From Clostridia bacterium (GTDB lineage Bacteria > Bacillota > Clostridia > Oscillospirales > CAG-272): a stretch of 64,000 bases of DNA. Numbering within the stretch: position 1 is the stretch's first letter; each line of letters starts with the position of its first letter. The position numbers and the translations under genes are program-made. The notes beneath the pieces are model-generated. The model saw nothing but the letters and a program-made list of their open reading frames with translations, was not told the DNA's origin and did not search any database. Shown piece by piece: positions 59,548-64,000 of the stretch. The DNA lies in the NCBI GenBank assembly GCA_017504625.1, contig JAFVQU010000008.1, positions 21,476 through 85,475 on the forward strand, written 5' to 3'.

Positions 59548-59551
59548 GTAT

Positions 59552-59602
59552 GGAACCCGCAAGGCGTTGCCTTGTCTAGCAGGTTCTGAGTCGTGAGATA
59601 TA
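59552..59602. repeat. Partial copy of the tRNA-adjacent inverted-repeat element
   Basis: GGAACC (59552-59557), inner hairpin CAAGGC-GTT-GCCTTG (59560-59574), then GGTTCTGAGTCGTG. The tail matches the copies at 63.4-63.7 kb; the left arm region is absent. Confidence 0.75.
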
Positions 59603-59654: not shown

Positions 59655-60563
59655 TTACGCAGTAATTTTATTTATCAGATCGATCATCAAAGCGTCTCTT
59701 TTTATATGATAAACGTATGCCATGGGATATCCATCAGCATCTGCTTCATATAATCCGTCGTAAGCAGGATTTTTAGTGGAAATAATTCTCGACAGCATAA
59801 ATTGTTCATCATCATTCAAAAGCCACGCAACTGCCGTCACATCCCATATCGTTCTTGTCCATGCCAGACCCTTTGCATAGCTGTTAGCCTCAGAGATTGT
59901 GTTTTCTCCCAAATAGGTAGCCAACTCATTCTTGCCGATAAACCAGAAGTTAAGCTCGGGCTCAGAAATTTTGAAGTTTCCGACAACGCCCTCGCACGGC
60001 AACTGCACGAAGGGTACTCCGCTTTGCATAACCACCCTGGCTGCAGCTATATCCTGCTTCATATTAAATTCTATCGTGTCACAATAATGATGCGCGTGAC
60101 CTCCAAGCCATACTACGACAACGTTATCCTTCATTTTGGGATTCAGGAGCAGTGCAGAAGCAACGTTCGTTATAGCTCCGATTGCAACTATGTAAAGAGG
60201 CTTTTCGGGGGAATATTTTTCTGAAAGCTCTGCCATCATTTTTGCCGCATCGGAAATGACCGGTGTTTTTTCATCTTCAAGATACTTTTCCGATCCCTTG
60301 AATACATCCACCTCTTCTTTCATCATCGAAAGAAGCCTCAAAATCTCGTCATAGCTTTTCTCCATACCGTCCTTTGGACCGCCTGAACGACCATTGTGAA
60401 ACGGTGCGGCACATATCGCCTTAACGTTAAGCTTATACTTTGATTTCAACATATAAGCGATAGCAAACTGATCGTCGATCTCGTTATATGCATCGGTATC
60501 CAAAACCACATCAATTTTTCCGCAAGGCACAGATAAATTCTTTATTCTCTGCTCGATATTCAT
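59655..60563 (-). CDS. Inosine-uridine-type nucleoside hydrolase
   Basis: A 302-aa enzyme that splits nucleosides into base and ribose. The calcium-binding signature VVLDTDAYNEIDDQFAIAYM lies at about 18-37, and NVVVVWLGGHAHHYCDTIEF near 150 matches the family. Start set at the ATG at 60563, which has AAGGAAGG upstream and lies one base after the kinase stop; a longer frame into the kinase gene is rejected. Coupling to a ribokinase-like gene fits use of the released ribose. Confidence 0.9.
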   Translation of the reverse strand: MNIEQRIKNLSVPCGKIDVVLDTDAYNEIDDQFAIAYMLKSKYKLNVKAICAAPFHNGRSGGPKDGMEKSYDEILRLLSMMKEEVDVFKGSEKYLEDEKTPVISDAAKMMAELSEKYSPEKPLYIVAIGAITNVASALLLNPKMKDNVVVVWLGGHAHHYCDTIEFNMKQDIAAARVVMQSGVPFVQLPCEGVVGNFKISEPELNFWFIGKNELATYLGENTISEANSYAKGLAWTRTIWDVTAVAWLLNDDEQFMLSRIISTKNPAYDGLYEADADGYPMAYVYHIKRDALMIDLINKITA

Positions 60564-60564
60564 T

Positions 60565-61797
60565 TTACTTAACCTTCCTTTTTCTATAGTTAAGCGGTGT
60601 TGTACCGTATTTTCCTTTAAACATTTTTCTAAAAAAGCTCGCATTTTCGTATCCGACGCGCTTTATTATTTCATCGACTGATAGCTCGGTCTGCGTCAAC
60701 AGCTCTTGCGCAAGCTTCAGTCTCTTTTTCTGCAAATAGCTTTTGAAGTTTTGTCCCGTTATTTTCTTTACCAACGCACCGGTGTAAATGATGGAGTATC
60801 CAAGAAAATCTGCCAATTCATTCAATGCCGCCTCGGATAAGTTTCCATCGATATACTCGTCAATCTTTACACGAAGCATTTCATTTTTCACGTCTGCATC
60901 GTTTGTTTCCATGTGCGGCATCTTTTCCATGACCTCGTTGATATACGGAATAGACACTGCCGCGCCTTCCCTTGTAACGCTGATTGCCGAAGCGCAGGAA
61001 GCAGTCTTTAATATTTTATCTATTTCCACCCCGTTTGCAATTCCCGACACAAAATATCCGGTAAATGCATCCCCAGCACCTGTCGTGTCAACAACGTCAA
61101 CCTTAAATATGGGGAAGGATTTTTGACTCGCACTGTCCTGATAAACACAGCCTCTGCTGCCAAGCGTCAACATTATTTTAAGATGCGGATACTCTTCTTT
61201 AAAATAGTCCAAGGCCTTTTGAACGGTTTCACAGCCTGATATTTCTTTCGCTTCTATCTCATTCAAAATCAAGTATGAAAGCATATTAAAATCAATTCTG
61301 CGTATTCTCTCATTGAACGGAGAAGGATTGAGAATAATTTTCATTCCCGATTGATATGCTTTCTCTATAATATACTCAAAATTGCTGGTCTCATTTTGCA
61401 AAAGCAATATGTCACCCTTGTCAAAAAACGATATGACTCTGTCAACCTGTTCTGTTGATATCATATGGTTTGAGCCGGGGTACAAAAATATCGCGTTGTC
61501 ACCCTCCTTGTTGACCTGAATAATGGCATGTCCGCTTTTTTCGTCCACGCGATCAATAAACGACACGTCAACTCCGTTTGCCTCTAAGAGCTCGAAGAGG
61601 AATTCTCCGCCTTCGCCAATACAACCCGCATGGTAGACAGTGCTTCCCGCTCGCGCGATAGCAATCGACTGATTTAATCCCTTTCCACCCGGAAAAACGT
61701 TCAGCGCATATGTAGTTTCGGTTTCTCCGACTGCCACCATGTGATCAAGTGAATATACGTAATCCACGTTACACGAGCCGAAATTCAATATTTTCAA
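60565..61797 (-). CDS. PfkB (ribokinase-type) kinase fused to an AraC-type DNA-binding domain
   Basis: A 410-aa fusion. Residues 1-300 are a PfkB-family sugar kinase: NFGSCNVDYVYSLDHMV, NVFPGGKGLNQSIAIARAGS (about 36-55), ILNPSP, and the ATP/anion-hole signature DTTGAGDAFTGYFVSG (about 240-255). Residues about 310-410 are an AraC/XylS double helix-turn-helix domain: LADFLGYSIIYTGALVKKIT, QKKRLKLAQELL and IIKRVGYENASFFRKMFKGK. Start at TTG 61797, eight bases after GGAGG. A sugar-sensing regulator or a bifunctional kinase is inferred; ribose is likely from the neighbour. Confidence 0.9.
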   Translation of the reverse strand: MKILNFGSCNVDYVYSLDHMVAVGETETTYALNVFPGGKGLNQSIAIARAGSTVYHAGCIGEGGEFLFELLEANGVDVSFIDRVDEKSGHAIIQVNKEGDNAIFLYPGSNHMISTEQVDRVISFFDKGDILLLQNETSNFEYIIEKAYQSGMKIILNPSPFNERIRRIDFNMLSYLILNEIEAKEISGCETVQKALDYFKEEYPHLKIMLTLGSRGCVYQDSASQKSFPIFKVDVVDTTGAGDAFTGYFVSGIANGVEIDKILKTASCASAISVTREGAAVSIPYINEVMEKMPHMETNDADVKNEMLRVKIDEYIDGNLSEAALNELADFLGYSIIYTGALVKKITGQNFKSYLQKKRLKLAQELLTQTELSVDEIIKRVGYENASFFRKMFKGKYGTTPLNYRKRKVK

Positions 61798-63228: not shown

Positions 63229-63317
63229 AAAAATTCTCCTAAAACTGTCTTGTAAATTTTCAAAAAAGCTTGTTTCACTAATCATTCTCAATTTTAATGC
63301 ACTTTTTCTCTTTTTGT

Positions 63318-63347
63318 ATTATAACACAGAACAAAAATGCGTGTCAA
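63318..63347 (-). promoter_or_regulatory. Sigma-A promoter of the PHP-domain gene
   Basis: TTGACA (63347-63342), 18-bp spacer, TATAAT (63323-63318). Confidence 0.75.
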
Positions 63348-63402
63348 TGGGCAATATCAGCTTTTCTTATCGTATTCTGTCGCAAAATAACTAATTGATA
63401 CT

Positions 63403-63462
63403 TATGCGCACGTCGAACACCACTGCTTCGCAGGGTGGCGAGTTCTGAGTCGTGGAATATAT
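63403..63462. repeat. Partial inverted-repeat element, copy 1 of the tRNA-adjacent cluster
   Basis: GCGCACGTCGAAC, inner hairpin centred on CTGC-TTC-GCAG (63423-63433), then GAGTTCTGAGTCGTGGAATAT. The left outer arm and the left half of arm 1 are missing. Confidence 0.75.
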
Positions 63463-63473
63463 ACTTTAAAGGG

Positions 63474-63585
63474 CTTCAGGGAGCTCTGAACCCTCACGTG
63501 CGTCAACATCAAATTGAAATCGAAAAACATTTAACGCACGTGGGAACCAATCGCAAGCGATTGGCGCGGGTTCGGTCGTGAACAA
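63474..63585. repeat. Full three-stem inverted-repeat element, copy 2
   Basis: Outer GAACCC (63488-63493) with GGGTTC (63568-63573). Arm 1: CACGTGCGT (63495-63503) with ACGCACGTG (63534-63542). Arm 2: CCAATCGC (63547-63554) with GCGATTGG (63557-63564). Ends GGGTTCGGTCGTGAAC. Confidence 0.85.
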
Positions 63586-63589
63586 AGCG

Positions 63590-63710
63590 GATTCAGGGAC
63601 TCTGAACCCTTATGCGCGCAAAGGTATATATAAAGCGAAGGGTTTCAAGCGCGCATCGAACAGGCAAGGCGGTGCCTTGCCTAGCGGGTTCAGAGTCGTG
63701 GAGTATGAAC
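63590..63710. repeat. Full three-stem inverted-repeat element, copy 3
   Basis: Outer GACTCTGAACCC (63598-63609) with GGGTTCAGAGTC (63686-63697), a 12-bp perfect stem. Arm 1: ATGCGCGC (63612-63619) with GCGCGCAT (63649-63656). Arm 2: GGCAAGGC (63663-63670) with GCCTTGCC (63674-63681). Confidence 0.88.
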
Positions 63711-63718
63711 GATAAAAG

Positions 63719-63750
63719 AAAAGACCGTGTCATTGACACGGTCTTTTCTT
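63719..63750 (-). terminator. Terminator of the tRNA-Asn/tRNA-Lys unit
   Basis: A 13-bp perfect stem (63719-63731 with 63735-63747), 3-base loop, T-rich on both sides, directly after tRNA-Lys. Confidence 0.9.
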
Positions 63751-63753
63751 TTA

Positions 63754-63829
63754 TGGTGCACCTTCAGGGACTCGAACCCGGGACCCACTGATTAAGAGTC
63801 AGTTGCTCTACCAACTGAGCTAAAGGTGC
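63754..63829 (-). tRNA. tRNA-Lys (anticodon CTT)
   Basis: Minus-strand 76 nt with encoded CCA. Acceptor GCACCTT pairs with AAGGTGC, discriminator A. D arm GCTC-AGTTGGTA-GAGC, anticodon stem ACTGA/TCAGT around CTCTTAA, T loop TTCGAGT. The T stem CCGGG/CCCTG has one C-T mismatch. Confidence 0.95.
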
Positions 63830-63832
63830 AAA

Positions 63833-63908
63833 TGGCTCCCCCTGTTGGGCTTGAACCAACGACCCCATGATTAACAGTCATGTGCTCTACCGACTGAGCT
63901 AAGGAGGA
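63833..63908 (-). tRNA. tRNA-Asn (anticodon GTT)
   Basis: Minus-strand 76 nt with encoded CCA, three bases upstream of tRNA-Lys. Acceptor TCCTCCT pairs with AGGGGGA (one G-U), discriminator G. D arm GCTC-AGTCGGTA-GAGC, anticodon stem CATGA/TCATG around CTGTTAA, T arm GTTGG-TTCAAGC-CCAAC. Confidence 0.97.
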
Positions 63909-64000
63909 ATATGAACGAAGTGAATATTTCTCCTTGTGCGAAGTCGGTAACGATTCGGCTTGCCGAATTAAAACGACATGAGCTAAGGAGGAATATGAAC
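63895..64000 (-). repeat. Direct repeat of the tRNA-Asn 5' end, 84 bp apart
   Basis: The 22 bases at 63895-63916 (tRNA-Asn nucleotides 1-14 plus eight upstream bases) recur exactly at 63979-64000. Between them are hairpins GGAG-x-AATAT/ATATT-x-CTCC and ATTCGGC/GCCGAAT. The window edge cuts the unit. Confidence 0.8.

Follow-up and report, generated by a model that had tools for sequence, protein, structure and literature searches.

Uncultured gut bacteria of the group that includes the host of this DNA carry folded units of about 100 nt behind many of their tRNA genes, and the arms of each unit follow the tRNA upstream. From sequence comparison we give about even weight to the reading that these units are gene-free mobile DNA, with a core of about 75–90 nt between two arms, occupying the T loop of tRNA and tmRNA genes. 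Mobile DNA using the T loop is favoured because of the position of the break in the tRNA copy, the displaced tRNA copy itself and the apparent exchange of cores. A sequence-only reading of the same DNA had proposed a conserved folded element with tRNA-derived arms, which the present analysis supports. That reading saw the tRNA likeness for tRNA-Lys only, and the general rule as it emerges from the sequences compared here is new: arms that follow whichever tRNA stands upstream, an extra T-loop base and a start 44–59 nt behind the tRNA. Of its three options, a structured RNA, a miniature mobile element or a recombination site, mobile or recombining DNA is now favoured, and an RNA is neither shown nor excluded.

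Units in the window and their fold

The window, which is the whole stretch of 64,000 nt that was analysed, belongs to a draft genome of 1.96 Mb in 30 contigs and ends where its contig ends. The units read naturally on the minus strand, which places them behind tRNA-Lys. On that strand tRNA-Asn comes first, then tRNA-Lys and a long terminator-like repeat; units 1 and 2 follow, and a partial unit closes the series (Table 1). Two full and two partial units, at 63.40–63.71 kb and 59.55 kb, were found in the sequence where the sequence-only reading had placed them. On the minus strand a full unit consists of a 5′ arm antisense to the T arm, hairpin 1 with a short loop, hairpin 2 with a loop of about 30 nt and, in most copies, a stem around TGCGC/GCGCA, and a 3′ arm that repeats the tRNA in sense from around nt 51 onward, with a single base added in the T loop. 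The one-base difference reported earlier between the left arm and the antisense of the tRNA-Lys T arm is correct.

Table 1 Positions of the units and their flanking features in the window
Feature	Position	Strand	Evidence
Full unit 1	63595..63700	(-)	Sequence, fold z -6.60, covariance-model matches
Unit 1 parts: 5′ arm (antisense T arm); hairpin 1; hairpin 2	63686-63697; 63663-63681; 63612-63619 with 63649-63656	(-)	
Unit 1 3′ arm (sense T arm plus one extra base)	63598-63609	(-)	
Full unit 2	63479..63582	(-)	Sequence, fold z -4.37, covariance-model matches
Unit 2 parts: 5′ arm; hairpin 1; hairpin 2; 3′ arm	63568-63580; 63547-63564; 63495-63503 with 63534-63542; ~63483-63493	(-)	
Distal partial unit (5′ arm, hairpin 1, first strand of hairpin 2; remainder absent)	63403..63460	(-)	88% identity over 48 columns to unit c at second tRNA-Lys
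Long A/T-flanked inverted repeat right behind tRNA-Lys, terminator-like in both directions	63713..63753	(-)	Sequence
tRNA-Lys (CTT); units copy its T arm and acceptor end	63754..63829	(-)	ARAGORN, Rfam RF00005
tRNA-Asn (GTT)	63833..63908	(-)	ARAGORN, Rfam RF00005
Partial copy away from any tRNA (5′ arm and hairpin 1, without hairpin 2)	59548..59600	(-)	Sequence, exact tail
Mirror element ahead of tRNA-Asn, to window and contig end	63909..64000	(-)	Sequence, fold, two-part scan

The tail GTTCxGAGTCGTG, earlier described as nearly constant, has exactly three exact occurrences in the window (59583, 63442 and 63688); it is thus exact in three of the four units, and unit 2 deviates with GTTCGGTCGTG. 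Searched alone with two mismatches allowed, the tail shows no excess over chance in the window (5 against 4.25 expected). Upstream of the partial copy at 59.55 kb, on the minus strand, lie a terminator-like repeat and a nucleoside hydrolase gene (59655-60644, Pfam PF01156), and a similar repeat separates the tRNA from the first unit in the other unit-bearing loci inspected. The same genome holds further copies behind a second tRNA-Lys (three units and a fragment), tRNA-Thr, tRNA-Ser and tRNA-Val.

Both full units fold better than shuffled sequence: 63590-63710 reaches -53.1 kcal/mol against -32.6 for shuffles (z = -6.60, 0 of 200 shuffles as good) and 63474-63585 reaches -39.1 against -26.4 kcal/mol (z = -4.37, 1 of 200). 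The three-way fold proposed earlier thus holds for the full units; the two partial units taken alone fold no better than chance (z -0.20 and -1.93) and are recognised by sequence. Inspection of the sequences confirms that the stem changes claimed between copies are genuine. In an alignment of 136 distinct sequences, which was fitted to the model, contains one antisense duplicate and has counts inflated by related rows, 92.5% of cells pair compared with 67.8% after shuffling, two-sided changes occur at 26 of 28 pairs, and the covariation score of 0.602 compares with 0.149 after shuffling and no more than 0.097 with slid partners. The sequence-only reading would have been given up had there been no further copies or had their stems drifted; copies recur in the genome and its relatives with complementarity kept. 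Ordinary terminators and chance palindromes are ruled out by the shuffled folds and the covariation. Nor are the units a known RNA family, as the two tRNAs alone exceed the Rfam gathering score in the window and a permissive scan of 63300-64000 adds none, or a tRNA gene or pseudogene, as no cloverleaf covers them and neither ARAGORN nor Rfam reports any tRNA in the window beyond the flanking pair.

Siting behind tRNA and tmRNA genes and likeness of the arms to the tRNA

Stretches around further copies were fetched in sets of 20 and then 100, with some places omitted, many of these near contig ends, and model searches over the resulting 127 sources gave 190 rows, or 187 matches once three antisense duplicates were dropped. 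Exactly 100 of the 187 begin 44–59 nt behind a tRNA gene on the same strand, covering 26 anticodons, a count that retains some near copies (for example L139 and L140). A further 49 matches lie less than 1 kb from a tRNA in the same sense and are presumably additional array members; no match among the 187 is within 150 nt of a tRNA that is placed or oriented differently, and 38 have no same-strand tRNA within 1 kb. Among these 38, the units at six loci stand behind a tmRNA gene, beginning 51–53 nt from it.

The arms match their own tRNA far better than other tRNAs. Across 99 of the 100 tRNA loci (one tRNA cut by a contig end was omitted), with 2000 shuffled tRNA assignments as control, nt 57–64 of the second copy agree with the adjacent tRNA at 7.60 of 8 positions, compared with 5.25 after shuffling (s.d. 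0.09, largest 5.58), and at all eight in 78 loci; the offset was chosen on the own tRNA, which gives that tRNA a slight advantage for these positions. Agreement at nt 51–53 is 2.78 of 3 (shuffled 2.12, largest 2.29; all three in 82 of 99), and the 5′ arm matches the antisense of nt 51–56 at 5.75 of 6 positions (shuffled 4.94, largest 5.10; all six in 74 of 99). Between C56 and R57 a single base is added to the copy in 86 loci; 10 loci have two, 1 has three and 2 have none, and A (44) and T (39) are the most frequent. Opposite this insertion the 5′ arm takes several states: in 31 of 99 loci it is antisense to the tRNA itself, leaving the extra base bulged; in 25 it has an added facing base, forming A-T or T-A in 23; in 28, nt 57–61 are incompletely matched, many with GA facing GA; and the remainder have another insertion length (13) or a weak anchor (2). 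Counted over 178 distinct units, the 5′-arm GA faces the T-loop GA in 27, where tandem G.A pairs on the tRNA strand are possible. The displaced 3′ copy of the tRNA varies in length among loci. Because an intact tRNA stands ahead of the core and the altered second copy, the tRNA gene stays whole.

Several units that lack a tRNA are preceded by what appear to be only its last bases, some of them at contig ends. At three loci (L051, L168 and L186) a large serine recombinase gene ends beside a tRNA 3′ remnant, followed by terminator and unit, which suggests an integrated element in the tRNA gene. Two viral contigs share one stretch in which an amidase-type gene and others are followed by a tRNA-Lys 3′ remnant and then a unit; a phage-borne element was rejected, this stretch from one viral pattern scan (two contigs) being read as a prophage end. 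Our reading of such loci is that integrated elements probably split the unit from its tRNA. At L056, L120 and L141 the recognisable tRNA before terminator and unit is a 3′ half only, and prophage ends or split tRNA genes are both possible. Hairpin-rich stretches that lack hairpin 2 occur at L014 (1–500) and, behind tRNA-Lys, at L366. They are flanked by an extended antisense tRNA-Lys end on one side and, on the other, by a sense T arm carrying an added base, and are possibly a related second type.

Arrays, likeness of cores and taxonomic spread

The 187 matches make up 134 arrays: 96 single, 28 double, 7 triple, one of four units and two of five, so that 38 of the 134 hold two to five units. 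Distal fragments occur in 28 of the 129 arrays with enough flank, 18 keeping the left side, 6 the right, 3 both and 1 the middle; the distal partial unit in the window misses its right side, the commoner loss (18 of 28). Some tandem units (L011, L045 and L053) include the complete end of the tRNA together with CCA and terminator. The two tRNA-Lys arrays of the window genome hold the same types in different order, B-A-C′ in the window and A-B-C-D′ at the second locus (C12), where matching types are 86% (B), 92% (A) and 88% (C, over 48 columns) alike and non-matching full types 56–79%.

Cores were compared without their arms, with loci assigned to genomes by a table compiled by hand. Between genera their likeness averages 0.598 behind other tRNAs (4314 pairs) and 0.601 behind the same tRNA; within a genus it is 0.627 behind other tRNAs and 0.715 behind the same tRNA (34 pairs), and within a genome behind other tRNAs it is 0.652 (150 pairs). 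Much of the presence of units may be inherited in place, as the same-tRNA, same-genus average suggests; inheritance in place and spread within a genome are both visible, the latter weakly by these averages. Among the within-genome pairs, 3 of 150 exceed 80%, one joining tRNA-Met and tRNA-Ala and two joining two kinds of tRNA-Glu. In the first case (genome G178) the Met and Ala cores are 95% alike, and each has the tail and terminator of the tRNA that it stands behind. The likeness begins just behind the two differing terminators and stops at the 3′ arm, beyond which each copy agrees first with the tRNA in front of it and then with the end portion of that tRNA's terminator. In the second (genome G018) three tRNA-Glu genes, two TTC and one CTC, have units that are 94–95% alike; the terminators are alike as well, so that gene duplication could account for these units. 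No clean empty site was found; the nearest (L356, the tRNA-Lys of genome G010) keeps an apparent worn 5′ arm.

Two covariance models were used to follow the units through related genomes. R1, built from 8 copies, matches 12 of 39 genomes at E 0.1, a count that includes the window's own; in ten of the 12 the match reaches E 0.001 or better. R2, built from 46 copies, gives matches at E 0.001 in 44 of 196 genomes and 20 of 71 genera of the family (own genome counted), in 4 of 295 order-sample genomes and in 1 of 291 class-sample genomes; the own genome is in each sample, so that the order adds three and the class none, and the large R2 searches used stricter filters that lose weak matches. Within the family the distribution is patchy, with 152 of 196 genomes giving no R2 match at E 0.001. 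A pattern scan of a genome collection returned 105 stretches; among the 80 listed with names, 77 are Clostridia, Clostridiales or Oscillospiraceae assemblies, many of the listed assemblies bear herbivore gut names, and the other three, from Pseudovibrio or Methylomonas, are at about chance level by our own estimate.

Proposed mobile DNA, competing explanations and known systems

If the units are mobile DNA, a single strand would fold into a three-way junction whose base stem pairs the antisense T arm with the T arm, and it would be in this folded state that an enzyme supplied from elsewhere in the cell recombines the element or copies it into a further T loop, rather like integron attC sites, which act when folded. 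The fold is conserved and therefore probably has a part in the reaction, as it does for integron attC. The sequences themselves show a core with hairpins 1 and 2 after the 5′ arm, and next to it another copy of the neighbouring tRNA, starting at about nt 51 and slightly changed, that is broken at, or has an insertion at, C56/R57. The match of the 5′ arm and of nt 51–53 to a new tRNA could come from re-copying from the target or from later correction within the hairpin; a simple cut-and-join at the T loop leaves it unexplained. This match is one of the weakest points of the mobile reading, together with the absence of a clean empty site and of an enzyme among the candidates searched. In its boldest form the mobile reading would have a folded strand entering the T loops (or, for the mirror type below, the D loops) of any tRNA or tmRNA gene, with the elbow of the tRNA as its address, and rebuilding both arms from the target, one scaffold colonising all and breaking none; we regard that form as conceivable but doubtful.

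The search for an enzyme covered 501 neighbouring open reading frames of at least 90 amino acids from 127 loci (the 60–64 kb part in the case of the window), grouped into 434 clusters. Among the 25 largest, no recombinase or transposase recurs beside the units. The largest, of a helix-turn-helix protein kind with 11 reading frames in 10 of 127 loci (for example L130 1070-2155, minus strand), may simply be a common family; others are SmpB (five loci, beside tmRNA), serine recombinase (three) and ABC transporter (four), each identified by comparing one member with Pfam. Four enzyme families were compared between 12 unit-rich genomes (7–17 matches) and 12 unit-free ones, all incomplete assemblies, and none of the four tracks the units. 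Y1_Tnp is found in 8 of 12 unit-rich and 5 of 12 unit-free genomes, and among these incomplete assemblies four unit-rich ones, the window's own included, have no match; Phage_integrase is present in all 24; RVT_1 occurs in 2 of 12 unit-rich and 4 of 12 unit-free genomes, and a reverse transcriptase was rejected with 10 of 12 unit-rich genomes unmatched; integron integrase (TIGR02249) exceeds its cut-off in 0 of 24, with weak matches in all 24.

We consider it rather unlikely that the units instead act in cis as RNA, in which an antisense T arm made by read-through would pair either with the decoy T arm of the same unit or with the tRNA, and so tune tRNA folding, end formation or supply. The constant distance, strand and order behind the tRNA, the strong covariation and the 31 of 99 loci in which the 5′ arm is antisense to the tRNA itself would suit such a role, but a strong terminator-like repeat precedes the unit, most genomes of the family (152 of 196) give no match, copy number ranges from one to five per array and certain copies have no tRNA ahead. 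Evidence on the folded strand is mixed. Mismatches on the tRNA-sense strand (180 sequences) comprise 122 G.T against 85 A.C and 155 G.A against 41 C.T, as expected if that strand folds; the constant T-loop GA confounds this lean, and G.T pairs make up only about 2.5% of cells (122 of 4910). Predicted folding energy favours the tRNA strand in 107 of 178 units by RNA parameters, a slight strand preference, and in 87 of 178 by DNA parameters, which is none.

An origin as an enzyme-free product of replication also strikes us as fairly improbable. A stalled strand would switch template from the T arm to an existing unit and return through the near-universal T-arm GTTC, copying the core behind a new tRNA, and the hairpins would promote more stalling. 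This explanation fits the Met–Ala pair, where each core gives way on its right to the T arm of the tRNA that it stands behind and then to the closing stretch of that tRNA's terminator, as if synthesis had returned to the target; it also suits the variable length of the copied tRNA tail, the excess of left-kept over right-kept distal fragments (18 against 6 of 28) and the four enzyme families that do not track the units. Yet chance alone would not keep a three-helix design, extra bases at one loop position (97 of 99) and a fixed distance across many genera, and selection would have to be added. Highly improbable, in our judgement, is a decoy or landing pad shielding the tRNA from phages or integrative elements that use tRNA 3′ ends. 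The units do re-create the usual attachment region, and at some loci a recombinase gene or phage-type end stands in the place of the tRNA; these same loci suggest that mobile elements still enter the tRNA, and a decoy would need neither the extra loop base nor the inverted arm.

Several known systems resemble the units in part. MITE and REP/BIME repeats are likewise small, gene-free, palindromic, dispersed and sometimes tandem, but the units are strictly sited behind tRNA genes with ends matched to each target. No full-length transposon matching the units was found among the neighbouring reading-frame clusters and four enzyme families, and a REP element with its RAYT is a poor fit with Y1_Tnp unmatched in 4 of 12 unit-rich genomes (incomplete assemblies). 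The attC core-site consensus is RYYYAAC and GTTRRRY; the 3′ arms of the units, judged by eye, are mostly GTTC and some ATTC, followed by the extra base, and do not conform to it. That the units work like attC would be a proposal about mechanism; on this analysis they would not count as integron attC sites, the tests of membership having failed. Integron attC sites are treated in PMC2727003 and PMC3053210. The units resemble them as short imperfect inverted repeats whose single strand acts folded, with inner hairpins that vary, a base stem that is imperfect and an arrangement in tandem arrays; they differ in that they hold no gene cassette and their arms follow the neighbouring tRNA. Islander-type genomic islands in tRNA or tmRNA genes (PMC4383910) also have a whole tRNA at one end and a displaced 3′ copy at the other. 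A regenerated tRNA gene with a displaced 3′ fragment was found across the 99 loci compared; the units differ in being about 100 bp, gene-free and built on one scaffold for 26 anticodons with an inverted T-arm copy, and no integrase lies inside these roughly 100-nt units or recurs beside them in the 25 largest reading-frame clusters. Phage Ms6 likewise recombines within a T loop, that of tRNA-Ala, but is a full phage using tRNA-Ala genes, in contrast to gene-free units behind many tRNAs (PMC1762012). Dada elements of fish also target tRNA genes as mobile DNA; they are eukaryotic DNA transposons (PMC8869645), and the units differ in carrying no gene. Such units are undescribed in the literature searched, which was covered at abstract level with subscription papers outside coverage.

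Elements that land in tRNA genes are usually bound to particular tRNAs through their integrase. Here one folded scaffold stands behind 26 anticodons and tmRNA, carrying the arm of each gene. If the units move, some process must carry target sequence into both ends of the element, in what would amount to a new mode of site choice; if they do not, they are a structured element of tRNA gene ends that is absent from the abstract-level literature searched. Either way, a covariance model now exists for finding and testing them.

In a small number of cases mirror elements stand in front of tRNA genes. The one ahead of tRNA-Asn in the window repeats, in sense orientation, roughly the opening 18 nt of the tRNA, with a single base added in the D loop; a hairpin, an antisense D arm and a spacer come next. 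By inspection, others copying about 18–20 nt stand ahead of tRNA-Thr(CGT) at L045, L080/L167, L171 and L282, and L170 and L061 lack one. A simple scan for tRNA 5′ copies ahead of tRNAs gave no excess (12 own against 12 swapped of 196 at 15 or more of 20 positions), and a stricter two-part scan found 2 of 268 against 0 of 268 in the control. The D loop and T loop touch in the folded tRNA. Ahead of tRNA-Pro(CGG) at L099, the opening 20 nt of the tRNA recur about 194 nt upstream with 19 of 20 positions matching, and a long hairpin-rich stretch follows.
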